NCBI GenBank assembly: GCA_023151275.1
Contig: JAKLJI010000033.1
Location: forward strand, 1 to 34,042
Direction of reading: 5' to 3'
Length of the DNA: 34,042 bases
From: Bacteroidia bacterium
GTDB lineage: Bacteria; Bacteroidota; Bacteroidia; UKL13-3
Below the pieces are notes generated by a model, which saw only the letters and a program-made list of their open reading frames with translations, searched no databases and was not told where the DNA came from. The first letter of the stretch is position 1. Each line of letters starts with the position of its first letter. The translations under genes and the position numbers were made by a program. This document shows positions 8,670 through 26,351 of this stretch, piece after piece.

Positions 8670-8709
8670 ACTTTCCACAAATAGGTAGGCAAAATAGCGA
8701 GAAAAAGCA

Positions 8710-8740
8710 TTTGAGCACAACAGGCAAACAGGTATATTCG
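8710..8740 (+). promoter_or_regulatory. Bacteroidota-type promoter for the dehydrogenase operon
   Basis: TTTG at 8710-8713, a 19-base spacer, then TATATTCG at 8733-8740 matches the known Bacteroidota sigma consensus (TTTG, N19-21, TAnnTTTG) in all but one position. The ATG of the first gene is at 8748, only 7 bases past the box, so the transcript would have almost no leader. The same 78-base gap must also hold the promoter of the opposing efflux operon, for which I see no clear match. Confidence 0.55.
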
Positions 8741-8747
8741 TTACCGC

Positions 8748-9326
8748 ATGAAACGCAGAACGCTCATCAAATCGGCCATACTTGCTGCATTCGCAGGTGC
8801 TGCAGGATACGGAGGCTGGCAAGCTTACCGGATTTTTAAAACTCCGGATGTTGCCGACCTCAAGAATCACCTGCCTTTAATTAACGCGCTGGCGCAAACC
8901 ATCATTCCCAAAACGGCAGACTCGCCGGGTGCGGGGGATGTGAATGCCGCAGCCCATATCGTTAGAATGGTTCAATTAGCCAGTGATAAAAAAACACAGA
9001 ATAGTTTTGTAAATGGCCTTGCAGACATTGCCAATGCTGCATATAGCCGTTACAACAAAGCCTTTGAAAACTGTAGTCCCCAACAACAAGCAGAACTGCT
9101 TACAGAAGCGCAAAATTCTGGAAAACCCTGGAAAGGTTCTTTAGGAAAGGTTCAGCAAAAACTGCTGGGAAATTCCTTTTTTACCACCCTCAAAGAACTA
9201 AGCTGTGAAGCTTGGTGTACTTCTGCAGAAGGCATGAATCAAGGTTTAGCATACGATTATGTTCCTGGTTCATTCCAGGGATGCGTTCCCCTGGCACCGG
9301 GTCAAAAATCATGGGCCACCAAATAA
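8748..9326 (+). CDS. Gluconate 2-dehydrogenase subunit 3 family protein (Tat-exported)
   Basis: The product has 192 residues. The N-terminus is a twin-arginine signal (KRRTLIK followed by an Ala/Gly-rich hydrophobic stretch to about 23). The family signature appears at 43-72 (LINALAQTIIPKTADSPGAG, then DVNAAAHI) and near the C-terminus (GMNQGLAYDYVPGSFQGC, 162-179). In characterised relatives this small subunit binds the flavoprotein large subunit and carries the export signal for both. The next gene, a GMC flavoprotein without a signal peptide, starts one base after this stop, which fits such a complex. The cytochrome c subunit found with some relatives is absent from the window. The substrate is unknown; the gluconate name is a family label only. 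Confidence 0.9.
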   Translation: MKRRTLIKSAILAAFAGAAGYGGWQAYRIFKTPDVADLKNHLPLINALAQTIIPKTADSPGAGDVNAAAHIVRMVQLASDKKTQNSFVNGLADIANAAYSRYNKAFENCSPQQQAELLTEAQNSGKPWKGSLGKVQQKLLGNSFFTTLKELSCEAWCTSAEGMNQGLAYDYVPGSFQGCVPLAPGQKSWATK

Positions 9327-9327
9327 C

Positions 9328-11079
9328 ATGAGTACAATAGATAGTTTATCAAACGACAGTTTACATACGGATAGCCTTTACTTGAATACAGGGAAAGGAA
9401 AAGCCACCCATTATTTTGATGCCATTGTTGTGGGTTCCGGTATAAGTGGTGGATTCGCAGCAAAAGAGCTTTGTGAAAAGGGATTGAAAACCTTGGTAAT
9501 AGAGCGTGGAAGAAAGGTGGAACATATCACCGATTATCCAACAGCCATGCTGAATCCCTGGCAATTTGAAAACCGGCTTCATGTAACCGATAACGACAAA
9601 AAACAGCAACCCATTCAAAGCGCTGTTGCCGATGAAAGCACCAAGCATTTCTTTGTGAATGATTTGGAGCATCCGTATATCCAGGAAAAGCCCTTTTTAT
9701 GGATTCGGGGTTATCAAACAGGTGGACGCTCTTTAACCTGGGGTAGGCAATGTTACCGGCTTAGCGAATTTGATTTGGAAGCCAATGCCAAGGAAGGCAT
9801 AGGGGTTGATTGGCCGGTTCGCTACAAAGACATTGCTCCCTGGTATGATTATGCGGAGCAGTTTGTTGGCGTAAGTGGCCAGAATGAAGGGCTACCGCAA
9901 TTGCCAGATGGGCAATTCTTGGACCCCATGGAAATGAATTGCATTGAACGTCACCTGCGTGAAAGCAACCAAAAACATTTTCCCGACCGCTTGATTACCA
10001 TTGCCCGAGTAGCCAACTTAACCAAAGGTTTGAAAGGCAGAGGACCTTGCCAATTCAGAAACCTGTGCGCAAGAGGTTGTCCGTTTAGTGGTTATTTCAG
10101 CAGCAACTCCGCAAGTTTACCAGCTGCCTTTGCCACCGGAAATCTGAGCTTACTAAACGATGCAATCGTTATGGAGGTTATGGTTGATAAAGAAACAGGT
10201 AAGGCAACCGGAGTTCGGGTAATGGATGCACATACCCATGAAATAACCGAATACTTTGCTTCCCTTATTTTCCTAAATGCATCTACCATCAATACAACTG
10301 CCATTTTACTTCAATCCATCTCAGAACGTCATCCGGATGGACTAGGAAACGGAAGCGGACAAGTTGGAAAAAACCTCATGGATCATCCCTATGGCGGGGG
10401 TGCTTATGGCGAACACGACGATTTCAAAGACCAGTACTACAAAGGAAGAAGGCCCGCAGGTGTTTATGTCCCCAGGTTTCAGAATATTCCCGGAGATTCC
10501 ATAAGCCGAAAATACAAAAGAGGTTTTGGCTACCAGGGCGATGGAGAACGCGCAGAGTGGCCTGACCGTATGAAAATGGAGGATGGATTTGGAGCTTCAT
10601 TCAAAGAAAAACTTACCACACCGGGACCTTGGACTTTTTGGATGATTGCAAGGGGAGAATGCCTTCCTTACGAAACCAATCGTGTTACGTTGGATAAGGA
10701 ACAAAAAGACCAATGGGGCCTCCCCTTGGTTCGTGTTAATTTTGAATTCGGTGAAAACGAAAAAGCCATGGTAGATGACCAAAAACGCCATGCCGAAGAA
10801 ATGCTCGAAAAAGCAGGATTCAAAAACATACGCTCTTTTTACTACAATACAACCGGTGGCAGAGCTGTTCATGAAATGGGAACTGCTCGCATGGGCAAAG
10901 ACCCCAAAACCTCGGTTGTGAATGGATTCAACCAACTGCATGAGGTACCCAATGTGTACATTACCGATGGTAGCTTTATGAGCTCGAGTTCTTGCATCAA
11001 CCCTTCCCTCACCTATTTGGCATTTACGGCCAGGGCTTGTGCACACGCTGTTGAAGAATTGAAAAAAGGGGGAGCATGA
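9328..11079 (+). CDS. GMC-family FAD-dependent oxidoreductase (sugar/alcohol dehydrogenase large subunit)
   Basis: The product has 583 residues from the ATG at 9328, one base after the previous stop. A longer frame from 9259 overlaps that gene and adds unrelated residues. Features by residue: the dinucleotide-binding motif GSGISG (36-41) ending in an acidic residue (VIERG); GGRSLTWGR (132-140); three cysteines in CQFRNLCARGC (241, 247, 251); the C-terminal GMC region with catalytic-type His515 (HEMGTARMG) and Asn558 (INPSLT). The spacing of the three Cys resembles the [3Fe-4S] segment of bacterial FAD-glucose dehydrogenase, so an iron-sulfur relay is possible. It lacks a signal peptide and probably crosses the membrane with the Tat-targeted subunit. 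The substrate is unknown. Confidence 0.92.
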   Translation: MSTIDSLSNDSLHTDSLYLNTGKGKATHYFDAIVVGSGISGGFAAKELCEKGLKTLVIERGRKVEHITDYPTAMLNPWQFENRLHVTDNDKKQQPIQSAVADESTKHFFVNDLEHPYIQEKPFLWIRGYQTGGRSLTWGRQCYRLSEFDLEANAKEGIGVDWPVRYKDIAPWYDYAEQFVGVSGQNEGLPQLPDGQFLDPMEMNCIERHLRESNQKHFPDRLITIARVANLTKGLKGRGPCQFRNLCARGCPFSGYFSSNSASLPAAFATGNLSLLNDAIVMEVMVDKETGKATGVRVMDAHTHEITEYFASLIFLNASTINTTAILLQSISERHPDGLGNGSGQVGKNLMDHPYGGGAYGEHDDFKDQYYKGRRPAGVYVPRFQNIPGDSISRKYKRGFGYQGDGERAEWPDRMKMEDGFGASFKEKLTTPGPWTFWMIARGECLPYETNRVTLDKEQKDQWGLPLVRVNFEFGENEKAMVDDQKRHAEEMLEKAGFKNIRSFYYNTTGGRAVHEMGTARMGKDPKTSVVNGFNQLHEVPNVYITDGSFMSSSSCINPSLTYLAFTARACAHAVEELKKGGA

Positions 11080-12347
11080 TTTCCCAAGGTGATTCTTTAG
11101 AAACCCTTAAACTAAAATGCCTTGCGCTGGCCAAAAATTACGAAACCGTATTTTGTTTGGATAGTCATCAACAAGAGGCAGCTTGCGGCATAGGGCGCTA
11201 TGAATTTTTGATTGCCTTGGGTAGCAAAAAAGAACTCATTTCCTCTATAGGTAATGCTTTTGAAAAACTACAAGCCTTTTACGATGAGAATAAAGGGGAA
11301 TGGATTTTTAATGGATTGGCTTACGACCTAAAAAATGAGCTCGAAAAACTGCATTCCATTCATGCCGACCCCATAGAATTTCCTGCACTATTCGCATTTG
11401 TTCCAGAGCATTGGTTGAGTATTGACAAGTCTGGAAAATGTGAGTCGTCTGTTGATTTTCCCGACCTGGATTCCGTACCCTTACCTACTCCTGTTCTGGC
11501 ATTATCAGGCATTCAATTCAAGCGCAAGGAAAGCGAAGAATCCTATTGCAGAAAGGTGAATCAAATTCGGGAACATATTCGCAATGGCGACGTGTATGAA
11601 CTGAATTATTGCACTGAGTTTTTTGCTGAAGGCGTTCAACTCGAGCCCTATTCCATTTATCAAAAACTTCGAACTTTATCGCCAACACCCTTTTCAGCAT
11701 TTGTTCGAATAAAAAACAAGTACTTGCTTGGTGCAAGTCCGGAACGATTTTTATTAAAAACAGGAAATAACCTATACAGTCAACCCATCAAAGGAACCTC
11801 AGCCCGGTTTGAGGACAAAGCAGCAGATGAATCATCAAAAGCAAAATTGCTGGAATCGGAAAAAGAGCGGGCAGAAAATCTAATGATTACCGATTTGGTG
11901 CGCAATGATTTGGCCAGAAGTTGCAAAACAGGCAGCATTCAGGTTGAGGAGTTGTTTGGCATTTATAGTTTCAGGCAGGTTCATCAAATGATAAGCACTA
12001 TTCGGGGCGAGTTAAAACCAGAAATTCATCCCGTACAAGCAATTGCCAATGCTTTTCCCATGGGCAGCATGACCGGTGCTCCCAAGGTGATGTCGATGAA
12101 ATTGATTGAACAATATGAAGAAACGCGACGAGGTTGGTACAGTGGGGCTTTGGGTTATTGCAATCCGGAAGCTGATTTTGATTTGAATGTGGTAATCCGG
12201 AGTTTACAATACAATGCCGAAAACCAGTATCTCAATTTTGAAGTGGGTTCGGCTATCACCTTCGATTCTGTAGCTGAAGATGAATACCGGGAATGTTTGT
12301 TAAAGGCAAAAGCCATGCTTCGGGTATTGAATGCAGAAATTGCTTGA
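11076..12347 (+). CDS. pabB: Aminodeoxychorismate synthase component I
   Basis: This is a 423-residue chorismate-binding enzyme. It makes 4-amino-4-deoxychorismate from chorismate and ammonia, the first step to p-aminobenzoate for folate. The chorismate-binding domain covers about 150-420. It includes QPIKGT (236-241), GSMTGAPKVMSMKL (330-343), RRGWYSGALGY and the C-terminal GSAITFDS. The Lys at 239 in PIKGT is the residue that distinguishes PabB (covalent lysine mechanism) from anthranilate synthase TrpE, which has PIAGT. Its ATG overlaps the GMC oxidoreductase stop by 4 bases (ATGA), an unusual partner. No glutaminase (PabA) or lyase (PabC) gene is next to it. The first ~130 residues are divergent, as is common in this family. 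Confidence 0.92.
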   Translation: MISQGDSLETLKLKCLALAKNYETVFCLDSHQQEAACGIGRYEFLIALGSKKELISSIGNAFEKLQAFYDENKGEWIFNGLAYDLKNELEKLHSIHADPIEFPALFAFVPEHWLSIDKSGKCESSVDFPDLDSVPLPTPVLALSGIQFKRKESEESYCRKVNQIREHIRNGDVYELNYCTEFFAEGVQLEPYSIYQKLRTLSPTPFSAFVRIKNKYLLGASPERFLLKTGNNLYSQPIKGTSARFEDKAADESSKAKLLESEKERAENLMITDLVRNDLARSCKTGSIQVEELFGIYSFRQVHQMISTIRGELKPEIHPVQAIANAFPMGSMTGAPKVMSMKLIEQYEETRRGWYSGALGYCNPEADFDLNVVIRSLQYNAENQYLNFEVGSAITFDSVAEDEYRECLLKAKAMLRVLNAEIA

Positions 12348-12380
12348 TTGAAAGGCAGTAAATTGTAGCTATGGCGATGG

Positions 12381-12700
12381 CTATTGGCGATGGCTGTTTG
12401 ATTTCGTGAACGATTTGAATTTCTGGGCTTTTGGCCATTTGCTTTTGGCCTTTGGCTTTGTTTTCGTAAATGAATTTGAATTGTGGAACTATGCCTTTTG
12501 GCTATTGGCGATGGCTTTTTAGGTGCAGGAACGATTTTCATTTCTGGGCTATTGGCCATTTGCTATTGGCCTTTTCCGTAAACGAATTTGAATTGTGGAA
12601 CTATGCCTTTGGGCTATTGGCGATGGATTTTTAGGGGCAGGAACGATTTTCAATTCGGGGCTTTTAGCCTTTTGCTTTTTCCGCCTTCGGCGGATTGGTC
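12381..12700. repeat. Degenerate tandem repeat, ~112-121-base unit
   Basis: Units begin with ctattggcgatgg at 12381, 12502 and 12614 (periods 121 and 112). Each runs through an aacgattt block, a 'ctgggct...ggccatttgc' block and 'gaatttgaattgtggaac'. The third unit diverges after about 60 bases. A fourth partial unit beginning tttttaggggcaggaacg recurs at 12901, after the hairpin pair, 273 bases from its counterpart at 12628. Unit lengths are not multiples of three, which argues against coding. The copy is at 29405-29724. Confidence 0.7.
12680..12694. terminator. Candidate hairpin terminator 3' of pabB
   Basis: tccgcc-ttc-ggcgga is a perfect 6-base stem with a 3-base loop. It is preceded by five T and followed within six bases by tctttt. 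It is 333 bases beyond the pabB stop, inside the tandem repeat. A decayed version (ccgccttcgcc) occurs at 12954-12964, so it may be part of the repeat unit rather than a dedicated terminator. The copy is at 29704-29718. Confidence 0.35.
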
Positions 12701-12738
12701 TTTTAACATCTTCAAGAAATTTAAATCGTTCATGTAAA

Positions 12739-12762
12739 TTTTGGCTATAGCTATAGCCAAAA
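12739..12762. repeat. 24-base perfect palindrome
   Basis: The dyad is centred between 12750 and 12751. Its core, ttggctatagctatagccaa at 12741-12760, is extended by tt on the left and aa on the right. It is built from the same ggctat/atagcc words as the flanking tandem repeat, so it may have arisen from a local inversion of repeat material. The copy is at 29763-29786. Confidence 0.65.
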
Positions 12763-12795
12763 GCCATAGCCAGAAATCAAAGCTATCGCCTAAAT

Positions 12796-12896
12796 CCCTT
12801 GCTAGGGTATTGGAATAATGCCACCCCTAACGGGGTTATTATTTGAAAATATTATAATAATTGCTCTTTCTACAATATTGCCACCCCTAATGGGGT
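12796..12896. repeat. Paired CCCC/GGGG mini-hairpins spaced 60 bases
   Basis: ccacccctaacggggtt (12821-12837) and ccacccctaatggggtt (12881-12897) each form an acccc/ggggt stem with a 4-base loop, at 12823-12836 and 12883-12896, exactly 60 bases apart. A shorter ccct-tgct-aggg stem lies at 12796-12807. Each of the two main hairpins is preceded by aatgcc or attgcc. The DNA between them is very AT-rich (ttgaaaatattataataatt). There are only two units and no spacer-repeat architecture, so this is not a CRISPR. The copy is at 29820-29920. Confidence 0.65.
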
Positions 12897-13046
12897 TGAC
12901 TTTTTAGGGGCAGGAACGATTTTCAATTCTGGGCCATTGGCCTTTTGCTTTTTCCGCCTTCGCCAGATTGGCCTATACGTTTCACATTGAGATTTTTGAG
13001 CGATGGCGATGGCTTTATGATTTCATGCTCGGTTTATTAACGGGAA

Positions 13047-13069
13047 CGGGCGGACCAATGGTCCGCCCG
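13047..13069. terminator. Strong 10-base-pair hairpin, shared 3' end of convergent operons
   Basis: cgggcggacc (13047-13056), loop aat, ggtccgcccg (13060-13069). The pairing is perfect and GC-rich. It sits 14 bases past the metallophosphoesterase stop on the minus strand and could also stop pabB read-through. No long T-run follows on either strand, so termination is inferred from stem and position. The copy is at 30071-30093. Confidence 0.6.
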
Positions 13070-13082
13070 CATCAGAAAATCT

Positions 13083-14408
13083 TTAAGCTCTAAACAGGGT
13101 GAAGACGGTAATCTCCGGAAGGATTCCTACCCTACCGGGATATCCAATAAATCCATATCCTCGGTTCACATAAATCATTTGTCTGTCAACATGGTATAAA
13201 TCTGCCCACTGCTTGTACATGTATTGACTCGGACTCCAACGAATATTGCCCATTTCAACCCCGAACTGAAAACCATGTGTATGCCCTGAGAAGGTAAGGT
13301 CTATGTCCTTATAGTCTTTACTCACCACCTTATCAAAATAACTTGGATCATGCGACATCAACAATTTAACCGGAACATCAGGCATGCCCTGCATGGCTTT
13401 TCCTACATCTCCGTACTTCTGGAAACGGCTTCTATCACCCCAGTTTTCAATGCCGATAAGACCTATCCGTTTGTTTTCCTTTTCAAGTAGCACATGCTCA
13501 TTTCGAAGCAAATTCCAGCCCATTTCTTTTTGCATGTAACAGAGGTCGTCTAAATTCTTCTGCTTGGCCTCCGGAGATTTCCAATTGTTCACATAGTCGC
13601 CGTAATCGTGATTTCCAAGCACTGAATAAACCCCCATTGGCGATTTTATTTCACTGAACATTTGCTGGTATTCAATCAACTCTTCTGCCCTATTGTTCAC
13701 AATATCACCTGTGAACAAGGTAATATGGGCTTTTTGTTCCTTGATTAACTTTATGCCTTGATAAACCGCATCTTTATTGGTAAAACTCCCGCTATGCACA
13801 TCCGAAATCTGAAGAATTTTAATGCCGTCAAAAGCCTCAGGAAGTTTAGGGATAACCAAATCGTGTCGCCTTACCTGGTAATTGTAGGCACCGGTGTACA
13901 TGCCACGGGTAAGGAAAACCAAAGGTACGGTCCCTGCAATAATTCCGGCCTTGGCTATGAATTCAGAACGTGAAATGCGCTTTTCTTCGGGTTCAATCGA
14001 CTCTTCAATTTCCTCTTCTTCTTCATCCTCCTCATCAGCAATTACCGCCTTTTTGTTTTTTCCGGCAAACAAACGCCTTAGGCGATGCCAGCACCACATC
14101 AAACCACGCTTTACGTCATCAATTACCATGAATAAAAAGCTAACCGATTTGGAGCCATAAACCACAATCAAAAAACCAGTAAAAAGTGTTCTCAATTCGC
14201 GCATCATAGCCACCTTATCATTCAGCATTACCAGAATAATAAATACCAAACTTAAGGTGGGAATCAACCAGTAAATTCCAAAAATCAGTCCTTGGGTAAA
14301 CTTTGAACGCTTGCGAATAAGCACTTTAAAAGCCTGCCAAACATAGGTATCTACAATCAATACCAGTAACAGAAAATAGAGAATCAGCTTAATCTTAAAT
14401 ACTGCCAT
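13083..14408 (-). CDS. Membrane-anchored metallophosphoesterase (calcineurin-like, YkuE/YaeI type)
   Basis: The product has 441 residues. Hydrophobic segments lie at about 5-27, 38-62 and 76-96. A basic stretch and then a very acidic linker follow (about 124-143, almost all Asp/Glu). A further hydrophobic segment at about 151-168 precedes the catalytic domain. The five metallophosphoesterase motifs are complete: D203-x-H205 (SDVH), GD at 234-235, GNHD at 265-268, SH at 352-353 and GHTHG at 375-379. These residues hold two metal ions in the family. It starts one base after the aldo/keto reductase stop, so the two form an operon. The substrate is unknown; relatives act on phosphodiester or lipid-headgroup bonds near the membrane. 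A terminator-like hairpin follows. Confidence 0.92.
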   Translation of the reverse strand: MAVFKIKLILYFLLLVLIVDTYVWQAFKVLIRKRSKFTQGLIFGIYWLIPTLSLVFIILVMLNDKVAMMRELRTLFTGFLIVVYGSKSVSFLFMVIDDVKRGLMWCWHRLRRLFAGKNKKAVIADEEDEEEEEIEESIEPEEKRISRSEFIAKAGIIAGTVPLVFLTRGMYTGAYNYQVRRHDLVIPKLPEAFDGIKILQISDVHSGSFTNKDAVYQGIKLIKEQKAHITLFTGDIVNNRAEELIEYQQMFSEIKSPMGVYSVLGNHDYGDYVNNWKSPEAKQKNLDDLCYMQKEMGWNLLRNEHVLLEKENKRIGLIGIENWGDRSRFQKYGDVGKAMQGMPDVPVKLLMSHDPSYFDKVVSKDYKDIDLTFSGHTHGFQFGVEMGNIRWSPSQYMYKQWADLYHVDRQMIYVNRGYGFIGYPGRVGILPEITVFTLFRA

Positions 14409-14409
14409 A

Positions 14410-15420
14410 CTAGTATCCGCGCTTGATTATGCCATAACCAATTCGCGCGCCCGTGTACTGATCAACCGGAGCATTGTTAAGAATGCCTTCTATCCGCTCC
14501 ATAATATCGGCACTCAATTCCAGTTTTAAACAACCCAAATTAGAATCTACTTGTGAAGGGCGAGAAGCTCCTGTGATGCAAGAGCTAATTGGCTTTTTGG
14601 TTAGTATCCATGCCAAAGCAAGTTCACCCAGAGTTGCGTTCAATTCATGAGCAAGCGCTTCAAGTTTATCTTGCAAATCCCAGTATTCTTCTGTCATTCG
14701 CTTTGTAGGAAACCAAGCATTCATAACCGTTGATGCCAGGCGGCTATCTTCTGGCGTATGGTTGCGACGGTATTTTCCGGTTAATAATCCTTGTGCTAGC
14801 GGAGAATAAACCACCAAACCCAGGCCTTCTTTTTCGCACACATCCATTACATCTGTTTCAAGTCCGCGATTTAGCATGTTGTAAACCGGTTGATTGGAAA
14901 TGGGCTTGCGCCATCCATTCTTTTCGCAAATACGCATGGCATTGGTAATTTGAACGGCTGTCCATTGGCTAACTCCCCAATGCAAAATCAAGCCACGCTC
15001 AACCAGATTATGCATGGCATAGCAGGTTTCTTCCAAGGGAGTATCGATGTCATACCGATGGCACTGGTACAAATCAATATAATCGGTTTGAAGACGTTTC
15101 AACGAGGCCTCGCAAGCATTGCGGATATGGCGCATGGACAAGCCTTGAGTCATCCAATGGTCGGACATAGGACCAAAGACTTTGGTTGCAAGAATTACCT
15201 CTTCCCGGCGGATGGTCTGAATAAATTCACCCAATACCTTTTCACTTTCACCCCTGTTGTACATATCGGCTGTATCCAGAAAATTTATTCCGGAATCAAC
15301 CGCTTTTTTAAGCACTTCAAATGCAGTTTGTTTTTCAATGCCAAGTCCGGTGGTTAACCAGGTGCCCAAGCTAATTTCAGACACCATCAACCCAGAGTTT
15401 CCAAGATTCCTGTATTTCAT
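14410..15420 (-). CDS. Aldo/keto reductase (Kv-beta/YghZ-like)
   Basis: The product has 336 residues from the ATG at 15420 (MKYRNLGNSGLMVSE), the usual start of this family. A longer frame to 15549 adds 43 unconserved residues across the promoter region and is rejected. It is an NADPH-dependent TIM-barrel enzyme. The catalytic tetrad is visible as Asp49 (FLDTADMY), Tyr54, Lys80 (LATK) and His121 (YQCHRYD). The GVSQW segment and the C-terminal NADP-binding stretch ITGASRPSQVDSN are also present. The sequence is closest in style to the potassium-channel-beta-like and YghZ group, whose members reduce aldehydes such as glyceraldehyde 3-phosphate. The real substrate here is unknown. It is first in a two-gene operon with the metallophosphoesterase and divergent from mtgA. 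Confidence 0.92.
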   Translation of the reverse strand: MKYRNLGNSGLMVSEISLGTWLTTGLGIEKQTAFEVLKKAVDSGINFLDTADMYNRGESEKVLGEFIQTIRREEVILATKVFGPMSDHWMTQGLSMRHIRNACEASLKRLQTDYIDLYQCHRYDIDTPLEETCYAMHNLVERGLILHWGVSQWTAVQITNAMRICEKNGWRKPISNQPVYNMLNRGLETDVMDVCEKEGLGLVVYSPLAQGLLTGKYRRNHTPEDSRLASTVMNAWFPTKRMTEEYWDLQDKLEALAHELNATLGELALAWILTKKPISSCITGASRPSQVDSNLGCLKLELSADIMERIEGILNNAPVDQYTGARIGYGIIKRGY

Positions 15421-15437
15421 ATTTATATTCTTGTTTT

Positions 15438-15445
15438 CAAAAATA
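15438..15445 (-). promoter_or_regulatory. Candidate -7 box (TAnnTTTG) for the aldo/keto reductase operon
   Basis: On the minus strand this reads TATTTTTG, a full match to the Bacteroidota -7 element. It lies 18 bases before the chosen ATG at 15420, which supports that start. No good TTTG is seen 19 bases further upstream, so it is only half a promoter by consensus. The copy is at 32462-32469. Confidence 0.45.
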
Positions 15446-15457
15446 GGGTTTCCATAT

Positions 15458-15474
15458 GGGTTTTGAGAAAACCC
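15458..15474. promoter_or_regulatory. Hairpin/dyad in the divergent aldo/keto reductase-mtgA promoter region
   Basis: gggtttt-gag-aaaaccc is a perfect 7-base inverted repeat with a 3-base centre. It lies upstream of the candidate -7 box of the minus-strand gene and about 85 bases upstream of mtgA. Its place between divergent promoters suits an operator, but no cognate regulator is identified. The copy is at 32482-32498. Confidence 0.35.
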
Positions 15475-15558
15475 GGCTTGTCTGATTTTGGAGAAATTCC
15501 CCACAAGAAAAAGGAAAGTACCGTTTGAATTCCCTTTCAATTTTATCATCTTGCACCC

Positions 15559-16287
15559 ATGGGAAGGACTTCAAAGGCAATAGGAAAGAAACTGGTAAAA
15601 CTCAGAGACTTCCTCTGGAGAGTTACCCTCCTGTTGTTTCAGTTAAGTTTATTTTTCATTATCATCTACCGGGTTTTACCTGTACCCATCACACCATTGC
15701 CTATTGTTCGTTTTTTTGAACAAGCCTTTGGCCCTGACCCAGTTCGGTTAAAGAAGGATTGGGAACCGATAGAAAAATTGGGAAAACCAATTTGCCTGGC
15801 TGCCATTACTTCAGAGGACCCTCGCTTTTTTGAGCATGTTGGCTTTGATTTTGAGCAAATTTGGGATTCTATTGAAAAAAGTTTCAAAAAAGGGAAAAGG
15901 CCCAGAGGTGCCTCTACCATATCCCAACAAACGGCTAAAAACCTGTTTTTTACTCCCAGCCGAAGCTGGATTCGTAAGATTCTGGAGGTGTATGTGACGG
16001 TTTGCCTGGAAACACTCTGGACAAAAAAACGAATTCTTGAGGTTTACCTGAATATTATTGAAATGGGTAAGGGAGTTTATGGTGCCGAAGCTGCTGCGCA
16101 ATTCTATTTTCAAAAACCGGCCAATGAATTAAGCAATCGTCAAGCTGCGGCCATAGTTGCTTGTTTTCCCAACCCACGCAGGTGGCAGGCCAATAATCCA
16201 AGTCGTTACATCAAAAGAAAACAGCAGATTATTGTCCGCTTTATGGACAAGATTCCGGATTTACCTTGGGATACCAAGGGAGATTGA
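15559..16287 (+). CDS. mtgA: Monofunctional peptidoglycan glycosyltransferase
   Basis: The product has 242 residues, the normal length for MtgA. A short basic cytoplasmic tail and one TM helix (about 20-40) precede a single GT51 domain. Motif 1 is AITSEDPRFFEHVGFD, with catalytic Glu86 and Asp87. Motif 2 is RGASTISQQTAKNLFF. Motif 3 includes KKRILEVYLNIIEMGKGVYG, with the second Glu at 161. It polymerises lipid II glycan strands at the outer face of the inner membrane. No transpeptidase domain follows, which separates it from class A PBPs. It is divergent from the aldo/keto reductase gene, with 138 bases between starts, and stands alone on its strand. The ATG at 15559 is the only sensible start. 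Confidence 0.95.
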   Translation: MGRTSKAIGKKLVKLRDFLWRVTLLLFQLSLFFIIIYRVLPVPITPLPIVRFFEQAFGPDPVRLKKDWEPIEKLGKPICLAAITSEDPRFFEHVGFDFEQIWDSIEKSFKKGKRPRGASTISQQTAKNLFFTPSRSWIRKILEVYVTVCLETLWTKKRILEVYLNIIEMGKGVYGAEAAAQFYFQKPANELSNRQAAAIVACFPNPRRWQANNPSRYIKRKQQIIVRFMDKIPDLPWDTKGD

Positions 16288-16455
16288 TTCTGTTGACTTT
16301 AGTGCTGGCCTTCCAATCCTGCTGTAAAGGTGTAAAGGACAGGTGAGCGATTTCAGGATGCTCAAAATAACCGCCCATATCTGAATTAGTCGAGCCTCAA
16401 AAAGTCAATTCGCAAACATGAATAGATTATCAAAGAATAAGCTTCGCTATTCAAA

Positions 16456-16632
16456 TTACCGCGTAAACCAATAAACCTTCATAAACCAATAAAACCTTCA
16501 TCCTTTGGAAGACTGGTGTTTTCTTTTGTTTTGAGAACACTGGGCGTGTGAGGTGTTTAGGCTTCATGCGTAAATTTGGAGCTTAAATTTTCCAAAAGCC
16601 TTTCGCTGTCGAAGGCGCCGGGAGCAGCAAGA
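16456..16632. repeat. Repeat element E2
   Basis: The head is ttaccgcgtaaacc followed by two cttcataaaccaat-like units. The linker is cctttggaagactggtgttt, then gagaacact, gaggtgttta and ttcatgcgtaa. A small inverted repeat follows (aaattt at 16572-16577 with 16585-16590), then the 30-base block 16592-16621 shared exactly with E3 (begins ccaaaagcctttcgctgtcg, ends ggcgccgg). It then shares gggagcagcaag with E1. It is the shortest member and lacks a long GC-rich tail. The copy is at 33480-33656. Confidence 0.75.
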
Positions 16633-16894
16633 GTGTGAGGAATGAGTAAGGAGGGGAAGTATATTCGTGTTCATCTAGTTTCCCTGATTTACCGGTTAAA
16701 CCACTTAAACCTTCATAAACCAATTAAACTGTTATCCCTTGGAAGACTGGTGTTTTGTAGTTTTGTGAGAACACTAATCCATTGAGGTGTTTAAATTTCA
16801 TGCGTAACTTTTGGAGGCCAAAAGTCACCAAAAGCCTTTCGCTGTCGAAGGCGCCGGCTTGCGCTGCATGGCCAACACCCTACAAAATCCCTGC

Positions 16895-16962
16895 CTGCCT
16901 TTTCGCGCCTGCTTCGCTCTTGCCCTCAAGGCCTACCCGAAGCGAACCAGCCAATAAGGCAG
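16895..16962. repeat. Nested inverted repeats in the E3 tail
   Basis: The outer arms are ctgcctt (16895-16901) and aaggcag (16956-16962). Middle arms are gcttcg (16911-16916) and cgaagc (16938-16943). The inner arms are cttg (16919-16922) and caag (16927-16930). All are perfect. The layout mirrors the nested repeat in the E1 tail although the sequence is different. The copy is at 33919-33986. Confidence 0.55.
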
Positions 16963-16993
16963 ACCGCACTGCCCGTCCCGCGGATTTTGCAGT

Positions 16994-17011
16994 CCCGTAA
17001 CTGGTTACGGG
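16994..17011. repeat. Perfect inverted repeat present only at the copy junction
   Basis: cccgtaac (16994-17001), tg, gttacggg (17004-17011). The equivalent place at the end of copy 2 (34017-34026) has a different short sequence, gcacgcgcag. This hairpin therefore marks the junction as a distinct variant of the repeat. Confidence 0.7.
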
Positions 17012-17100
17012 ATGGCCGACATCGAGGAGGGCTGCTCCTGATTTTAGGGTTTCACCATGGTGAAACTCTACATTTCCTAGGAATCAAAATTCTCGATTAT

Positions 17101-17454
17101 TTACCGGTTAAACCAATTAAACCTTCATAAACCACATAAACCTTCATAAACCACATAAACCTTCATAAACCCTCATTCTTTGGGAGACGCGTATTTTGTT
17201 GTTTTTCTGTGAGCCAAGGGATAAAGTTTTAGCCAGCCGCGGATTTGGCTTAGGGGGAGCAGCAAGTACCCCGTGGTTTGCAAGCGGTTGCCTGTTGGGA
17301 ATTGCCGGCGACCGGCAGCGAGCCCGGCAAGGCCCTTACAGGCAAGCAGTCTTGCAAGCCGGGGAGTACTTGCGGATACCCCGGCGGCGGCGGGCGGAAC
17401 GGAATTTTGTTGAGGAACGGATTTTGCCGCGCCCGCCGCCGCAAGCCCCTTCAA
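17101..17454. repeat. Repeat element E1, copy 2
   Basis: This matches 77-430. The 19-base units start at 17122, 17141 and 17160, and the inverted repeats lie at 17262-17373 and 17384-17452. The 18-base palindrome sits just before it at 17049-17066. Together with E2 and E3 it fills the 1188 bases between the convergent ends of mtgA (copy 1) and the crp-family gene (copy 2). Confidence 0.75.
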
Positions 17455-17475
17455 AATGGTCTTGGATTTCCGGCT

Positions 17476-18084
17476 TTACCCGATTGAGGCCAATTCTATC
17501 CCCTCGCGGGTTTGTATTAACCGACCCTCTTTCTCGAGCTTTTTCAAAACACGGGTTACAACCTCACGCGCTGTTCCTATGTTCTGAGCAATTTCACGGT
17601 GAGAAATCTTTATTACTTTTTCGGGATGCAGTGCCGCGCGCTCTTTCAGGAAATCCAACATGCGGGAATCGATTTTATCAAACAGGAGATGCTGAATGGT
17701 TTCAACCAATCCATCATACCGCTGGTGGTAACTTTCTAAGAATGCTTCATTCAAGCGTGGATTTTCAATAAGAAGTTCCTTTAATTTTTCAACGGGAATG
17801 AGCAATAGCTCTGAGTCCGACTCGGTAAAAGCGCTAACTTTACTGGGAGAACCTGAAATCCCTGCTGTAAATGTCATTACACAACTTTCGCCGGGTTGAA
17901 CATAATACAAGAGCAGTTCGCGGCTTTCATTCCCTGTAATAACTTTGACCAATCCATTTAGCACAACAGGCACTACCCTTACCACCTGCTCCTCGGTAAG
18001 AATCCGGATACCGGCTTTAAGTTCAACACGACTTGAGCCCTCAGCCAAAAGCTGAATCAGGTGATTAGGGAGTGTACCTTTCAT
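17476..18084 (-). CDS. Crp/Fnr-family transcriptional regulator (copy 2)
   Basis: The 202-residue protein is identical to that of 452-1060. It is the last gene of the second efflux operon, 4 bases after the pump stop. This copy is the one whose downstream region demonstrably contains the full E3-E1 repeat array. In copy 1 the window starts before that array can be seen. Confidence 0.9.
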   Translation of the reverse strand: MKGTLPNHLIQLLAEGSSRVELKAGIRILTEEQVVRVVPVVLNGLVKVITGNESRELLLYYVQPGESCVMTFTAGISGSPSKVSAFTESDSELLLIPVEKLKELLIENPRLNEAFLESYHQRYDGLVETIQHLLFDKIDSRMLDFLKERAALHPEKVIKISHREIAQNIGTAREVVTRVLKKLEKEGRLIQTREGIELASIG

Positions 18085-18088
18085 TAGA

Positions 18089-21000
18089 TTATCTTGCGCT
18101 TAGGGAATGCTTAATTCTTTCTGCAAGATAGATGATGATGGGAAAAACCAATAGGGTTAAAATGGTGGCTGATATCAACCCACCTATTATCACAATAGCC
18201 AAAGGTTTTTGAGATTCCGAGCCAATTCCGGTTGAGATGGCGGCCGGCATTAACCCTATGGACGCCATTAAAGCTGTCATGATAATGGGTCGGGTACGAA
18301 CCTGAACTGCCTGAATTAAAGCCAGCGAAAGATCTCCAAGCTCTTTCATTCGCAGGTGGAACTCCGAAATCAATATCACCCCATTTTGGATACAAATGCC
18401 AAACAAAGCAATAAATCCAACACCGGCCGATATTCCAAAATTGATTCCGGTGATATGAAGAGCAAGTATTCCACCCATTACCGCAAAAGGCACATTTGCC
18501 AACACCAGCAGCGAGTCGCGGATATTTCCGAATAGAATAAATAGCAGAAAAAAGATACCAATCAGACTTAAGGGGACCACTTGAACCAGGCGATTTCCTG
18601 CCCGTACCTGATTTTCAAATTCCCCGGTCCAACCTATGGAATAACCGGTTGGCAGTTTGATTTGCTCGTTCACCTTTTTTTGAGCTTCTGCAATGGTACT
18701 GCCCAAGTCCCGCTCCCGAACAGAGAATTTCACCCCGATAAATCTTCGGGTATTGTCCCGATAAATGAATGCAGGACCGGTTTGTTTCCGAAGGGTTGAA
18801 ATTTCGCTTAAGGGTATTTTACCACCTGTCATGGTTGGCACCATCAGGCGAGAGATATCATCCTCTGTTTTTCGGTACTCGCTTGAATAGCGAATTCTAA
18901 CATCAAACTTTCTATCGTTTTCGTAGCGCTGGGTAGCTGTTTTACCACCAAATGCCATTTCCAAAACGGCTTGTGCATCTGATAGGGTTACGCCATAAGC
19001 GGCCATTTTCTCGCGATTTAACACTACACTTACTTCCGGTTGGCCCACGTTGCGCAAAATTCCCAAATCTTTTATCCCATCCACACCTTTGATAGAAGCA
19101 ATTACCTGGTTTGCCAATTCATCCAATTTATCCAAATCAGGGCCATAAATTTTAACTGCGTTTGAAGCATTGATACCCGCCACTGACTCTGCCACATTAT
19201 CAATAATGGGTTGACTGTAATTGTAGCCTATGCCTTGGTATCGGGTGAGTCTGGCATCCATTTGAGCAATCAATTCCTGAAGGGATATCTTTCTCTCCCA
19301 TTCCTCCTTGGGCTTCAGGTTCACCTGCATTTGCACGTAATAAAATCCACTTGGGTCAGTACCATCGTTGCTTCGGCCTGTTTGTGATAGTACACCATTT
19401 ACTTCCGGAAATGCTTGAAGTTCTTTGCGTAAAACTGCAACCATTTTAACCGTTTCATTCAAGCTAAAACTCATGGGCATTTTTGCCTCTACCCAAAGCG
19501 CTCCTTCGTTAAGTTCGGGTAAGAATTCGGTACCCAGGAATTTAGCAGAACCAAGCACGAGTAGCAGCAACAAGGCGCTAATCACAAGAGTTGTCTTTTT
19601 TGCAGCAAAACTTATACGGAAGAACTTCTCTGTTATCCGATTCCAAAAATTCACGAAGGGATTATTTTTTTCCCTCACATTTTTATTCAGTAGTAAATGG
19701 GCTAAAACCGGCACCAGGGTCAAGGTAAAAAGGAGTGCACCTAACAGCGCAAATCCAAGCGTATACGCCAAAGGGGAAAACATTTTTCCTTCCACTTTTT
19801 GAAAGGAGAAAATGGGCATGAGTGCTGTAATAATTATTAACTTGGAGAAGAAGATGGCTTTTCCCAACTGAATGCCCGACTTGCGTATAAAACCCGCTTT
19901 GGCCAATTTATTAAATCGGTCCATTCCTATTTTATGAGCCAGGTGATCGAGGGCCACATATACACCTTCAACCATAACCACTGCCCCATCTATGATAATT
20001 CCAAAATCCACGGCGCCTAAGGATAACAGGTTTGCACTCATACCCATAAGGTTGAGGCAAAGAAAGGCGAATAGCAAGGAAAGAGGGATGATAATAGCCA
20101 CTGTAATTGTAGTTCGCCAATCGGCCATGAATAGCAAGACAATCAAGGTAACAAAAATGATTCCTTCAACCAGGTTATGCATTACTGTTCCCGTGGTATA
20201 ATTCATGAGGTTATCGCGGTCGTAGAACGTTTCGAGCCTTACATCAGCGGGAAGAATAGTGGCATGCAACTCCTCAATTTTAGCTTTCACCCGTTGCAGT
20301 ACTTCGCGTGGATTTTCTCCTTTGCGCATCACCACAATACCTTCCACCACATCGTCGGCAGAATCAAGTCCAACCTGCCCAACCCGAGGTAATGATGACT
20401 CAATTACCTGCGCCAGGTTTTTCACTAAAACCGGATTTCCTGCGGCGTCATCTACAATGATGTTTTCGATATCTGCAATGGAATTCAGCAATCCCACTCC
20501 ACGCACCACATAAGCCTGTCCGTTTTTCTCGATGATATCTCCACCCACATTCAGGTTGCTCCGATTTACAGCTTCATACACCTCAAGTGGAGTAATGCCG
20601 TATTTGAATAATTTATTGGGATCAACACTAATTTCATACACCTTTTCCTGACCACCAAAAGCCACCAAATCTGCCACTCCGGGAACAGCTCTCAGGTTGC
20701 GGTCGATTACCCAATTTTGAAGGGTAAGCAATTCGCGGGTATCACGCGATGGACTTTTAAGCACATACCTGAAAACCTCTCCGGTAGGACCATAAGGGGG
20801 CTGCACTTCGGGTTCAATTCCTTCGGGAAGATTGACATTGCGTAGCTGATTATTTACTTGTTGTCTGGCAAAGAAATCATCTACATTGTCTTCAAAAATG
20901 ATTTTGATAACAGATAGGCCAAACATGGTAATGCTGCGCACGCTGGTCTTCTTTTGAACCGGGTTCATGGCAATTTCAATGGGTGCAGTTACGAACCGTT

Positions 21001-21193
21001 CAATTTCTTCCGCACTTTTCCCATTCCACTCGGTAACAATAATGATTTGCGTATTGGTAACATCAGGGAATGCCTCCACAGGCATATTCCTGAAGGCAAT
21101 TATTCCGCCAATGGCCAGTAATCCCACCCAAAAAAAGGTAAAGGCTTTGTTTTGAATGGAAAAGCCAATTATTGATTTAATAAACTTATTCAT
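18089..21193 (-). CDS. czcA: CzcA/CusA-family heavy-metal efflux RND pump (copy 2)
   Basis: The 1034 residues are identical to the product of 1065-4169, including the D396/D402/E409 proton-relay motif. Two intact copies would raise pump dosage if the duplication is real. No substitution distinguishes them, so there is no sign of functional divergence. Confidence 0.95.
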   Translation of the reverse strand: MNKFIKSIIGFSIQNKAFTFFWVGLLAIGGIIAFRNMPVEAFPDVTNTQIIIVTEWNGKSAEEIERFVTAPIEIAMNPVQKKTSVRSITMFGLSVIKIIFEDNVDDFFARQQVNNQLRNVNLPEGIEPEVQPPYGPTGEVFRYVLKSPSRDTRELLTLQNWVIDRNLRAVPGVADLVAFGGQEKVYEISVDPNKLFKYGITPLEVYEAVNRSNLNVGGDIIEKNGQAYVVRGVGLLNSIADIENIIVDDAAGNPVLVKNLAQVIESSLPRVGQVGLDSADDVVEGIVVMRKGENPREVLQRVKAKIEELHATILPADVRLETFYDRDNLMNYTTGTVMHNLVEGIIFVTLIVLLFMADWRTTITVAIIIPLSLLFAFLCLNLMGMSANLLSLGAVDFGIIIDGAVVMVEGVYVALDHLAHKIGMDRFNKLAKAGFIRKSGIQLGKAIFFSKLIIITALMPIFSFQKVEGKMFSPLAYTLGFALLGALLFTLTLVPVLAHLLLNKNVREKNNPFVNFWNRITEKFFRISFAAKKTTLVISALLLLLVLGSAKFLGTEFLPELNEGALWVEAKMPMSFSLNETVKMVAVLRKELQAFPEVNGVLSQTGRSNDGTDPSGFYYVQMQVNLKPKEEWERKISLQELIAQMDARLTRYQGIGYNYSQPIIDNVAESVAGINASNAVKIYGPDLDKLDELANQVIASIKGVDGIKDLGILRNVGQPEVSVVLNREKMAAYGVTLSDAQAVLEMAFGGKTATQRYENDRKFDVRIRYSSEYRKTEDDISRLMVPTMTGGKIPLSEISTLRKQTGPAFIYRDNTRRFIGVKFSVRERDLGSTIAEAQKKVNEQIKLPTGYSIGWTGEFENQVRAGNRLVQVVPLSLIGIFFLLFILFGNIRDSLLVLANVPFAVMGGILALHITGINFGISAGVGFIALFGICIQNGVILISEFHLRMKELGDLSLALIQAVQVRTRPIIMTALMASIGLMPAAISTGIGSESQKPLAIVIIGGLISATILTLLVFPIIIYLAERIKHSLSAR

Positions 21194-21196
21194 GGC

Positions 21197-22297
21197 TTAA
21201 TCATTCAAAGCATCGTAAATCAACAACTGATTGGCGGTAATTACTTTCTCGCCGGATTTCAAACCCGATTTTACATAGGTGATATCTTCAAACTGGCTAA
21301 AGGGTTCAATCTGCCGGGTTTCAATCTCGTTTCGGCTATGGTAAACCATAACGAAATACCTGCTTTTATCAAAAATAACAGCCGATGATGGAATGGCAGG
21401 TAACTGCTGTTGATCTTTGTACCGTACACGAATATTTGCGCGCATTTCGGGCTTCAGCAGGTAGTTTGAATTGGCAAGTTTAACCCGAATTTTCATGGCC
21501 TTGGTTTCAGGGTCGATGATGTTAAAAATCTTATCAACCGTACCCTGAAAAACAGTATCGGGATAACTGAAGGTGCTAACCAAGGCTTCTCCTCCGAGTT
21601 TAACCTGGTTAATTTCACTTTCGTTTACATTGGCCAGCGCCCATACTTCATCTATCTGCGCAATGTCGAAAATGTTGTTGCTTCGGTCATTGCGAAGCAG
21701 CATATCTTGATTGATATTTTTTTGGATGATAAACCCGGAAATGGGAGAGCGAACTTCAAAAATGGCGCCTGAGCGCATGTTGTAAATGCGGTAGGTTTCT
21801 TCAATTCGACTCAATTGGGCCATGGCCTTTTCGAGTTGACTTTTAGCTTCAATAACTTCACGCTCCGAAACCAATTTCCCTTCAAACATTTCAGTGGCTA
21901 CCTTCAGGTTATTCTTGGCTACAATTTTATCGGTTTTGGCATTTTCCAATTCCTGTTCAAAGCTTGCTACTTCTGTGCTTCGGATGGTGGCCAGAAGCTG
22001 TCCTTTTTGAACAAAATCGCCCAACTCTACATAAACCCGGTTTACACTTCCACCCACAACCGGAAATACATCAATGGATTTGTTGAAATCGGCTACAATT
22101 TTGCCAAAGAATTTGTATTCCCTGCGTAAGGGAATTTCTACCACATCTTTCCATTGTGTGGTTTCTAGCATTTTATCGCTCAAAACAAAGCTTTTCATGG
22201 GCACCTTTTCACTTGAGTTCCTGTTGCAGGAAATCAATAAAAAGGCCACCAAAAAGAGGGTTAGCGAAAACTTTAGCGGATTATTTGAATACATCAT
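21197..22297 (-). CDS. RND efflux periplasmic adaptor (copy 2)
   Basis: The 366-residue lipoprotein adaptor is identical to 4173-5273, with the same 17-base overlap with the outer-membrane factor gene and the same 3-base gap before the pump gene. Confidence 0.92.
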   Translation of the reverse strand: MMYSNNPLKFSLTLFLVAFLLISCNRNSSEKVPMKSFVLSDKMLETTQWKDVVEIPLRREYKFFGKIVADFNKSIDVFPVVGGSVNRVYVELGDFVQKGQLLATIRSTEVASFEQELENAKTDKIVAKNNLKVATEMFEGKLVSEREVIEAKSQLEKAMAQLSRIEETYRIYNMRSGAIFEVRSPISGFIIQKNINQDMLLRNDRSNNIFDIAQIDEVWALANVNESEINQVKLGGEALVSTFSYPDTVFQGTVDKIFNIIDPETKAMKIRVKLANSNYLLKPEMRANIRVRYKDQQQLPAIPSSAVIFDKSRYFVMVYHSRNEIETRQIEPFSQFEDITYVKSGLKSGEKVITANQLLIYDALND

Positions 22298-23537
22298 ATG
22301 CAGTTAATTCTTGAAGGTAAAAGCCCGAAACCAATAGGGAATGCTCGAGTTCCTGACGGCGAATAAGGGTTTGATTGTAGCTCTCGATAAAATCGGTGAA
22401 CTCGAGCAATGAAATATTGCGTTTGTGGAAATTGAGCATTACGCCCTCGTAAACCTGTTGCAATTGAGAGGAGCTTACCAAACGAATACGTCGCAATTCA
22501 TCCTGGTTTAATTTCAATTTGGAGAGTGCATTCTTAATGGAAAGTGAAAGCTCTCGTTTGGCTTGAATCTGTTGAATTCGTGCTTTTTCCAGTTCAACTT
22601 TAGCGGCCCCAATGGCACCTTTGTTTGGATTGTAAAGTCGCAAAGGCATGCCTAAAGTTAAATTCAATTGGTTATTGAACGCACCTCCACGTTGGTCATA
22701 TCCGGCACCCAAAGTAATATCTGTGATTCCCATGGCCTTTTGCCAGGCCAGGTAACGCTCTGCATTCAGGCTTGACTCCTGTGCAAGCCGTAATTCCGGA
22801 TTTCCAGCCATTGCAATCTGAATGAGCTCATCAACCCTTAATACCGGCTCCCGCCACAAAACCGTATCCAATTGGCTTTTGTTCACTTGTGGAATGGGAA
22901 TGGTATCAAGGCCGGTAAGCAAAGCAAGTTGTTTGCCGCTTTCTTCAAGCAACAAACGAGCACTTGAATATTCGCTGCGTACCTGACTTAACAAGGCTTG
23001 CAATCGAATCAATTCCTTGAGTGCAATATTTCCTTTTTGAGCCTGGATTTGATAATTGAGAAGTAAGGTATCAAGCACAAAGGCCTGCTTTTCCAACATT
23101 TCAAGCTTTCGAATTTGGTACCAGTTATCGTAAAAAGCTTCGGCCAAACTGGTTCTCATTTTCCGAAACAGCGATTCCAGTTCCAGTTCTGCGAGTTTGG
23201 TATTTGATTTTGCCCAATCTATTTCAGCTTTTCGTTTTCCACCTAACTGCATTAGCTTTTGAATGGAGGCCTGTTTTTGTCCGGATTGACCCATATCAAA
23301 CCATTGAGGCCTATTGGGATTGTAGGCATTTACTTCCAGGTACAATTCAGGCAATGGCCGAATAGCTGCCTGAATTTCCATTGCCCTGGATGCAGAAACA
23401 TTTAACTCGGCAGCAATCAAAGCCGTATTGTTTTGAACCATCAGGCTTTCAGACTGCTGGAATGTTAGTTTTTGCTGGGCTTCCAGAGGAAGCAGGAAAC
23501 AAAGTCCGAATAAACTTGCAAAAACAATTCGTAGCAT
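22281..23537 (-). CDS. TolC-family outer-membrane efflux channel (copy 2)
   Basis: The 418 residues from the ATG at 23537 are identical to 5257-6513. The start was chosen so that the signal peptide is N-terminal; the longer frame begins at 23573. Confidence 0.9.
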   Translation of the reverse strand: MLRIVFASLFGLCFLLPLEAQQKLTFQQSESLMVQNNTALIAAELNVSASRAMEIQAAIRPLPELYLEVNAYNPNRPQWFDMGQSGQKQASIQKLMQLGGKRKAEIDWAKSNTKLAELELESLFRKMRTSLAEAFYDNWYQIRKLEMLEKQAFVLDTLLLNYQIQAQKGNIALKELIRLQALLSQVRSEYSSARLLLEESGKQLALLTGLDTIPIPQVNKSQLDTVLWREPVLRVDELIQIAMAGNPELRLAQESSLNAERYLAWQKAMGITDITLGAGYDQRGGAFNNQLNLTLGMPLRLYNPNKGAIGAAKVELEKARIQQIQAKRELSLSIKNALSKLKLNQDELRRIRLVSSSQLQQVYEGVMLNFHKRNISLLEFTDFIESYNQTLIRRQELEHSLLVSGFYLQELTAYDVFK

Positions 23538-23618
23538 GGTTTTTATTTTGAGGCAAAACAAAAACCCGTGCATTAAAAGCGTGTTTACACCTCACTTAAA
23601 AAGGCATTAAAGTCAAAG

Positions 23619-25001
23619 TTAGTTGATTGAATATAAGTTAAATATACACGAAAACTCGTGCATTTTTTTCTCGGCATTGTAGCTGTAAACCAATTCTGCC
23701 TGATGGTATTCCAAAATGCGTTTAACGATACTAAGGCCAAGTCCTGAGCCTGAAATAGTTTGAGAATTGATTCCTCGACGAAAGGGTTGATAAATTTCAG
23801 ATTCAGCCATCAAACCTGAATCTTCCCCTTGGTTAAGAATTTTCAATTCAATTTTATGCTCTCCAGTTTCTGAAAGAACCACCTTTACCACCTTATCGGA
23901 AGAGTAAAGGCATGCATTTCTCAGCAAATTGGCGAAGGCAATTTGCAATACCTGCGCTTGAGCCGGAATCAATAAATCCGATGATTCGGAAGTTGTTTCA
24001 TCAATCTCAAACTGAAAACTAATATCCTTGAATTGAGGTTTGATATCGTCGATAACACGGAACAACAATTCATCCAATCGCTCGGGGAATAAGTCGATGG
24101 TATTGGGTTCATCTTTGATGCGAGACAGGATTAACAAGGAATGAATAAGTTCCTTCATCTGTTCAACCACCTTTTCCATTTCGGCCAGGTAGCTTTTTAC
24201 CGCAGGCGAAACGCCATCCATTTTTTTGAGATTGTCTAACTGAAAAGTAAGGCGCGATATGGGAGTTCGTAATTCGTGGGATGCCAAAGAAGTAAATGCT
24301 TTTTGAGTATTCACTACTTTATTCACCCGCTCAAGCAATTGGTTGAAAGAGGTTGTGAGGGATTGAATTTCATCGTGGCGACTTGGATTAACGAGAGGTT
24401 GATTTAGGTTATGCCCGGAAATCGATTGAAAACCTGTCTTCAACCTATCAAGTGGAATAAGTAAGCGATTGGTCATGCTATACGTGATAAACCAAACCAG
24501 AAAAACACCGAGGCAATAAATCAATATAAGCGAATAAAGCAGAAACTCTTGCTTGCGTATGCCGTAGTGATCTTCGGCAGAAATAATCACGTAGTAGTCG
24601 CGCGGTTCAAGGTCGTAATAAACCCCATAAATTTCCTGGTCATCTTCTTGAAAGAAGAATTCTTTCTCGGATTTCAAACGTTTCAAATCTCCAAAATTCC
24701 AATCTACCCGCTGGTCATCAATGCTGGAATAAATAAGCTTAAAATTCTCATCAAAAATAAGTGTCTTTTCATTGTACAGTTTATTGATTGAATTTTGGTC
24801 AATTACTTTCAGCAAATAGGAATCAATTTCTTTTACTTTAAACATGTAATTGGCCGTAGTCAATGCCTTTTCGGCCAATCTATCCTTAAACTCCTCCATC
24901 CGGAAATTGTAAAACAAAGCATAAAGAACTACCGAACAAATTCCGAAAATTACGGTAAAGGCAATGCTCAGGTTAAAGGATATACTTTGTTTGAGATTCA
25001 T
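23619..25001 (-). CDS. Two-component sensor histidine kinase (copy 2)
   Basis: The 460 residues are identical to 6595-7977, including phosphoacceptor His242 and the GSGLGLS box. It overlaps the response regulator stop by 4 bases. Confidence 0.93.
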   Translation of the reverse strand: MNLKQSISFNLSIAFTVIFGICSVVLYALFYNFRMEEFKDRLAEKALTTANYMFKVKEIDSYLLKVIDQNSINKLYNEKTLIFDENFKLIYSSIDDQRVDWNFGDLKRLKSEKEFFFQEDDQEIYGVYYDLEPRDYYVIISAEDHYGIRKQEFLLYSLILIYCLGVFLVWFITYSMTNRLLIPLDRLKTGFQSISGHNLNQPLVNPSRHDEIQSLTTSFNQLLERVNKVVNTQKAFTSLASHELRTPISRLTFQLDNLKKMDGVSPAVKSYLAEMEKVVEQMKELIHSLLILSRIKDEPNTIDLFPERLDELLFRVIDDIKPQFKDISFQFEIDETTSESSDLLIPAQAQVLQIAFANLLRNACLYSSDKVVKVVLSETGEHKIELKILNQGEDSGLMAESEIYQPFRRGINSQTISGSGLGLSIVKRILEYHQAELVYSYNAEKKMHEFSCIFNLYSIN

Positions 25002-25693: not shown

Positions 25694-25733
25694 ACTTTCC
25701 ACAAATAGGTAGGCAAAATAGCGAGAAAAAGCA

Positions 25734-25764
25734 TTTGAGCACAACAGGCAAACAGGTATATTCG
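25734..25764 (+). promoter_or_regulatory. Bacteroidota-type promoter for the dehydrogenase operon (copy 2)
   Basis: TTTG at 25734-25737, 19-base spacer, TATATTCG at 25757-25764, with the ATG at 25772. Identical to the site at 8710-8740. Confidence 0.55.
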
Positions 25765-25771
25765 TTACCGC

Positions 25772-26350: not shown

Positions 26351-26351
26351 C

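Follow-up and report, generated by a model that had tools for sequence, protein, structure and literature searches.

The 17-kb block of this contig probably exists once

The window that we analysed, a stretch of 34,042 nucleotides, is an entire contig (C26) of a Bacteroidia draft genome (3,903,213 bases in 76 contigs), and it contains the same 17-kb block, here named U, in two copies. We consider it probable that U is a single block flanked by repeats, and that it came to be written twice when a loop in a k=77 assembly graph was walked once. The contig consists of four parts: the two copies of U, a short stretch J at their junction, and a second short stretch, T', at the contig end (Table 1). 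In a self-comparison of the window, 1–16974 and 17025–33998 (offset 17,024) exhibited 0 differences over 16,974 bases; the 21 mismatches at this offset are all confined to 16975–17017 versus 33999–34041. This exact comparison bears out a first-pass annotation of the same DNA, in which the identity of the copies was said to stop at 16974/33998. Such an absence of mismatches is as expected of one edge used twice.

Table 1. Features of the window and of related contigs, with gene-order breaks and kept adjacencies
Feature	Position	Strand	Remark
Window, entire contig C26	1–34042		Order U (1–16974), J (16975–17024), U, T' (33999–34042)
Block U, copy 1	1–16974	.	Letter-identical to 17025–33998
Block U, copy 2	17025–33998	.	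Probably the same graph edge, second pass
J, repeat middle at junction	16975–17024	+	Hairpin inside
T', repeat middle at contig end	33999–34042	+	Commoner type
Module CD	16804–16990, again 33828–34014	+	Found without module A on C1, C23, C35 (twice), C40, C75
Module A	17015–17147; in copy 1 from window base 1 to 123	+	Found without module CD on C15, C45, C49
Degenerate piece of composite repeat, upstream of junction	16456–16621, again 33480–33645	+	82% to 16689–16857
Hairpin TCCCGTAAC-TG-GTTACGGGA	16993–17012	+	18-base core
Exact 77-base overlap with C34 start (assembly-graph node)	33966–34042 = C34:1–77	+
77-mer node where J and T' diverge	16898–16974, same node 33922–33998	+	Contig's own k=77 graph
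Gene-order breaks	GMC–chorismate; chorismate–metallophosphatase; C34:849–DUF2279; C34:2037–SusD; NAD synthase–TonB; SpoU–oxidoreductase (C45)
Kept adjacencies 1–4	Metallophosphatase–aldo/keto; aldo/keto–transglycosylase; TonB–Por; C34:2037–DUF2279
Kept adjacencies 5–8	SusD–large gene beside it; that large gene–GldB; OmpA–C45:3049; C45:3049–SpoU

Two variant middles of one intergenic composite repeat

J and T' are two real middles of a composite intergenic repeat, built of a module CD and a module A. A search of the genome with its own window:16500–17200 produced 33 matches, a count that takes in incomplete copies as well as the window; such dispersal in several copies is as a MITE-like element would show. 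We aligned 14 copies, namely J, T' and 12 others, nine of which have the CD side and three (C15, C45 and C49) the A side only. Both modules occur together in J, in T' continued by the start of C34, in two more copies on C34, and in one on C55. One of the copies with CD alone, that on C1, is interrupted by the contig end; among the copies with A alone, that on C15 bears a hairpin. The proposal that the junction and the window end represent two variants of one repeat is thereby confirmed by alignment with the other copies in the genome. No match to the composite repeat was found in 39 other genomes, including three from the same genus, in a limited look that scored at most 14 candidates per genome and returned only 23 of the 33 own-genome matches.

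As the first-pass annotation had described, J and T' both carry CGGATTTTGCAG (16981–16992 and 34005–34016), CCGACA and CGAGGAGGG, and differ in between; the sequence likewise contains the hairpin that had been reported in J at the place where the terminus has GCACGCGCAG. In the 3.9 Mb genome CGGATTTTGCAG occurs eight times (reversed control, 0), with six of the sites inside listed copies of the composite repeat and the other two on C11 and C14. The hairpin core, at up to two mismatches, was recovered from two places in the searched genome, J and C15:295–312, each on both strands (reversed control, 0). The middle of J differs in the alignment from that of T', which carries the common repeat middle GCACGCGC. 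Across the 14 aligned copies, J has its hairpin as in C15 and a module A unlike that of C15, while the first element of C34 has the common middle and a module A resembling that of C15. When J (16975–17024), C34:1–194 and the C15 element are set against each other, the hairpin and module A types look exchanged.

Module A itself contains a near-perfect palindrome around GTTTCACCATGGTGAAAC (21–46 and 17045–17070), which matches its own opposite strand, folds as a hairpin and varies among the repeat copies. Folded as RNA, 16970–17080 is only modestly stable (z -2.32; 6 of 200 shuffles equally good), and for that reason we claim no RNA function for it. Nor do we assign an RNA family to 15500–18500: the lone candidate, mir-1913, scored 20.7 bits (E 0.95), below the gathering score of 105.

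Contig ends fall at nodes of a k=77 graph

Each of the 76 contigs was surveyed at its two ends; with 21 short ones reading N, 55 contigs and 110 ends could be compared. Five end-to-end overlaps of at least 15 bases emerged: two of 77 bases (the right end of C26 with the left end of C34, and C41 with itself) and one each of 41, 16 and 15 bases, the first of these three between the right end of C34 and the left end of C15. In the pieces compared, the terminal 77-mer recurs for 21 of the 110 ends, and 19 of these 21 match inward over exactly 77 bases (four of the 19 make up two end-to-end overlaps, in which a longer match is impossible, and some pairs are counted from both sides). The remaining two are the right end of C34, which matches 83 bases, and the left end of C26, which matches 16,974. 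We conclude from the exact 77-base matches that the draft is a k=77 de Bruijn assembly: contig ends fall at graph nodes of one fixed k, k=77. To name SPAdes as the assembler would be a guess on our part. The contig's own k=77 graph, taken on one strand, branches at 16898 and 33922 only. Separately, C41 (9,395 bases) bears the mark of a circular contig, a terminal overlap of exactly 77 bases with itself; 77-mers of C41 also recur at the left ends of C21 and C31.

The exact recurrence of the last 77 bases of the window in C34 disposes of a doubt raised in the first-pass annotation, that the terminal 44 differing bases might reflect low-quality reads: since 33966–34042 recurs letter for letter as C34:1–77, these 44 bases are genuine sequence that runs on into C34. 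The expectation that unique chromosome lies downstream of 34042 holds in so far as C34 follows and carries chromosomal genes (by Pfam: NAD synthase, GldB, SusD-like and Por secretion tail domains), but C34 opens with the rest of the element: C34:71–181 matches window 1–110 (module A) at 88%, and more element pieces extend up to about C34 base 586. Many contig ends lie in the composite repeat, which consequently tangles the draft assembly: C15, C45, C49 and C26 read into the element, and C26, C34 (both ends) and C55 read out of it. These ends can be paired in several ways, and the sole join that we assert is that of C26 to C34.

A single block can yield the contig as written

Taking these observations together, we propose that U is most likely a chromosomal block of approximately 17 kb that lies between two direct copies of the composite repeat. 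Should the CD modules on either side of U share an identical stretch of at least 77 bases, a k=77 graph would merge both elements into a loop (U, common CD, J, U) plus an exit (T' to C34), and an assembler that took the loop once and then left it would write U-J-U-T'. J would represent the middle of U's left element (less likely that of another copy) and T' the middle of the right element. Loop resolvers would traverse such a loop once, then leave via the exit edge. We infer the single copy of U, the position of J in the left element and the behaviour of the assembler.

This proposal was compared with its most direct competitor in two trial models, one with a single U and one with a tandem U; in both, the left element was assumed to share 82 CD bases with the right one, and C15 served as trial left flank. 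The k-mer sets of the two models are identical at k=77, 78, 99, 105 and 106; one k-mer differs at 107, and 44 differ at 150. At 16868–16869 U reads AT, against GA on C15 and C34. Both models having the same k-mers up to k=106, the second copy of U is no independent evidence of duplication, and a k=77 assembler can write U-J-U-T' from a single U. The pattern that the first-pass annotation presented as exactly what unequal crossover predicts is not specific to that process, the trial model with one U yielding the same k-mers. The broader statement, 'recombination or mis-joining between repeats', survives in part: both processes leave the same contig, with mis-joining somewhat better supported and unequal crossover less so.

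In the single-copy trial graph the right contig end is explained by a node; at base 1, where the contig begins, there is no node. The start at base 1 would be accounted for if U had a second, unseen predecessor, whether a repeat copy (within the contigs reading N or within undeposited fragments) or a real second context of U (duplication or mixed culture). The terminal 77-mers of the right end of C45 and of the left ends of C49 and C55, all in the repeat, do not recur in the compared pieces, which makes unseen repeat copies likely. On contigs other than C26, exact matches to the CD end reach 77 bases (C34 start) and 65 bases, both on C34, and the others are shorter; an identity of the left CD over 82 bases is not displayed by any readable contig.

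The first-pass annotation predicted a J-type element upstream of base 1; among the 110 readable contig ends, those of C26 itself excepted, there is no end that finishes with window 1–77 or with J. C15, which near its end has the one recurrence of the hairpin, is a lead for the left neighbour of U and no more. C33 and C21 were considered and rejected: the orthologue of the gene that precedes the chorismate enzyme in genus-mates (putative uvrC, by eye) is inside C33 (29433–31220 of 199,505 bases), that of the 954 aa gene adjoining GldB in G003 is inside C21 (14235–17084 of 37,695 bases), and neither is at a contig end beside U. Two genus-mates, G002 and G003, each have one close transglycosylase (78%), in a single block (other matches, at most 40%); copy number in genus-mates says little about that in the sequenced strain.

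Duplication, mixed culture and circular replicon

A real, recent tandem duplication of U through unequal homologous crossover between the flanking repeats, with J as the hybrid element, is conceivable, and we regard it as unlikely. The contig as written does have U twice, but a k=77 assembly cannot phase an exact repeat of 17 kb, and so the contig does not show two copies. The repeat copies that flank U look direct and alike, the right element being complete via C34 and the left one represented by module A only, from base 1. The node at 16898 and the start at base 1 would also fit a graph in which U is entered from J and from an unseen X, and left towards J and T'. However, were the left middle of the J type, J and X would diverge further upstream than base 1, and hence a simple crossover within CD fails to explain the contig start; moreover, all aligned repeat copies have G at the position of base 17024, which leaves the branching X without a known counterpart.

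We give little credence to a mixed culture, in which some cells would carry U and others would have lost or duplicated it (or would contain an excised circle) by exchange between repeats, with J and the element before C34 as reciprocal recombinants. In its favour, J and the first C34 element look swapped around CGAGGAGGG relative to C15, and the nodes at base 1 and at the C34 start may indicate more than one predecessor for both U and C34. Yet repeat copies that escape the list (in the 21 contigs reading N and in undeposited fragments) would yield the same nodes, and no parental elements for such a swap came to light. That U is a circular replicon of 17 kb, whether a plasmid or of another kind, and was written as a dimer is scarcely credible, and this reading was set aside: the copies are head-to-tail and identical and the draft contains one circle-marked contig, C41, but the scan of 11 proteins of U (a set without the 192 aa ORF at 8748–9326) recognised no replication or transfer protein, three U genes stand together, adjoining NAD synthase, in G002 and G003, a gene order thus common to relatives, and the contig end leads into C34.

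Gene content and gene order around the repeats

By Pfam, U encodes a Crp-like regulator, an RND efflux operon, a two-component system, a GMC oxidoreductase (with relatives in Runella, Puia, Chitinophaga and others), a chorismate-binding enzyme, a metallophosphatase, an aldo/keto reductase and a transglycosylase. Together with the SusD-like, GldB and Por secretion tail domains on C34, these relatives of the oxidoreductase point to the Bacteroidota. For the left part of U, the compared stretches of G002 and G003 gave no match. The second efflux and regulator gene set in the draft is not to be counted as a duplication without reads.

Gene order was compared between 11 stretches of the present genome and stretches of seven relatives (ORFs of at least 100 aa; E 1e-15; at least half of the ORF covered). 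In G002 and G003 the chorismate enzyme comes first, then Por-tail and TonB genes (equivalent to the right part of C34), the 104 aa gene of C34, GldB and NAD synthase, followed by metallophosphatase, aldo/keto reductase and transglycosylase, and then by the OmpA and SpoU genes of C45. In the present genome, the chorismate enzyme is followed within U by the metallophosphatase trio; on C34, NAD synthase is followed by the element and then by the TonB/Por pair in reversed orientation. Counted by hand, there are six breaks relative to genus-mates in U, C34 and C45, two of which contain the composite element (C34:11943–12611 and C45:1687–2266), while it occurs in none of the eight adjacencies conserved in at least one relative. 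Breaks at contig ends were excluded from these counts, as was the GldB–NAD synthase pair, in which another gene intervenes. From such small, hand-made counts, past rearrangement at composite repeats is plausible and no more; the repeat family could plausibly have been the substrate on which gene order changed in the species. The chorismate–metallophosphatase break contains a different repeat.

That second intergenic family, with a 112-base tandem unit, occupies window 12378–12676 and 12887–12974, and again copy 2; it sits between the chorismate enzyme and the metallophosphatase, where gene order departs from that of genus-mates, and it has relatives on C15 (435–547 and 3650–3946). The present genome measures 3.9 Mb, and G001–G003 about 2.0 (79% complete), 2.5 and 2.4 Mb.

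A more ambitious reading, which we put forward as a long shot, is that the composite repeat may recombine actively in the living population: U and its efflux operon would be reversibly duplicated, excised or deleted by exchange between the flanking copies, J and the element before C34 would be reciprocal recombinants in one culture, and the same repeats would have shuffled the neighbouring blocks since the split from genus-mates. Duplication or excision, if real, would offer a natural example of repeats driving a change in the copy number of an efflux operon.

Comparison with known systems

Tandem duplication by unequal crossover leaves a unit flanked by direct repeats, with a junction element that differs from the end element. 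In the contig, likewise, the repeated unit seems to lie between direct copies of one element, and the element at the junction is not that at the end. It departs from such a duplication in that two copies of U are not demonstrated by the contig, whose start is at odds with a simple crossover in CD.

We found no description of an assembler loop of this kind in the literature, among the matches listed. Repeats fragment and mis-assemble Bacteroidia genomes (PMC5771137), and our single-block interpretation resembles such repeat-induced misassembly of draft bacterial genomes in that contigs end in, or join through, near-identical dispersed repeats. In the present case a long unique block between the repeats is written twice.

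The composite repeat without a match in the 39 related genomes (limited look) is, in that respect, unlike the MITE-like elements of Bacteroidota, to which we liken it by dispersal and modules only. Dispersed intergenic repeats and MITE-like elements of this phylum have reportedly been the subject of a Porphyromonas gingivalis study. Like them, the present repeat is short and occupies many intergenic places in one genome, with its modules single or combined.
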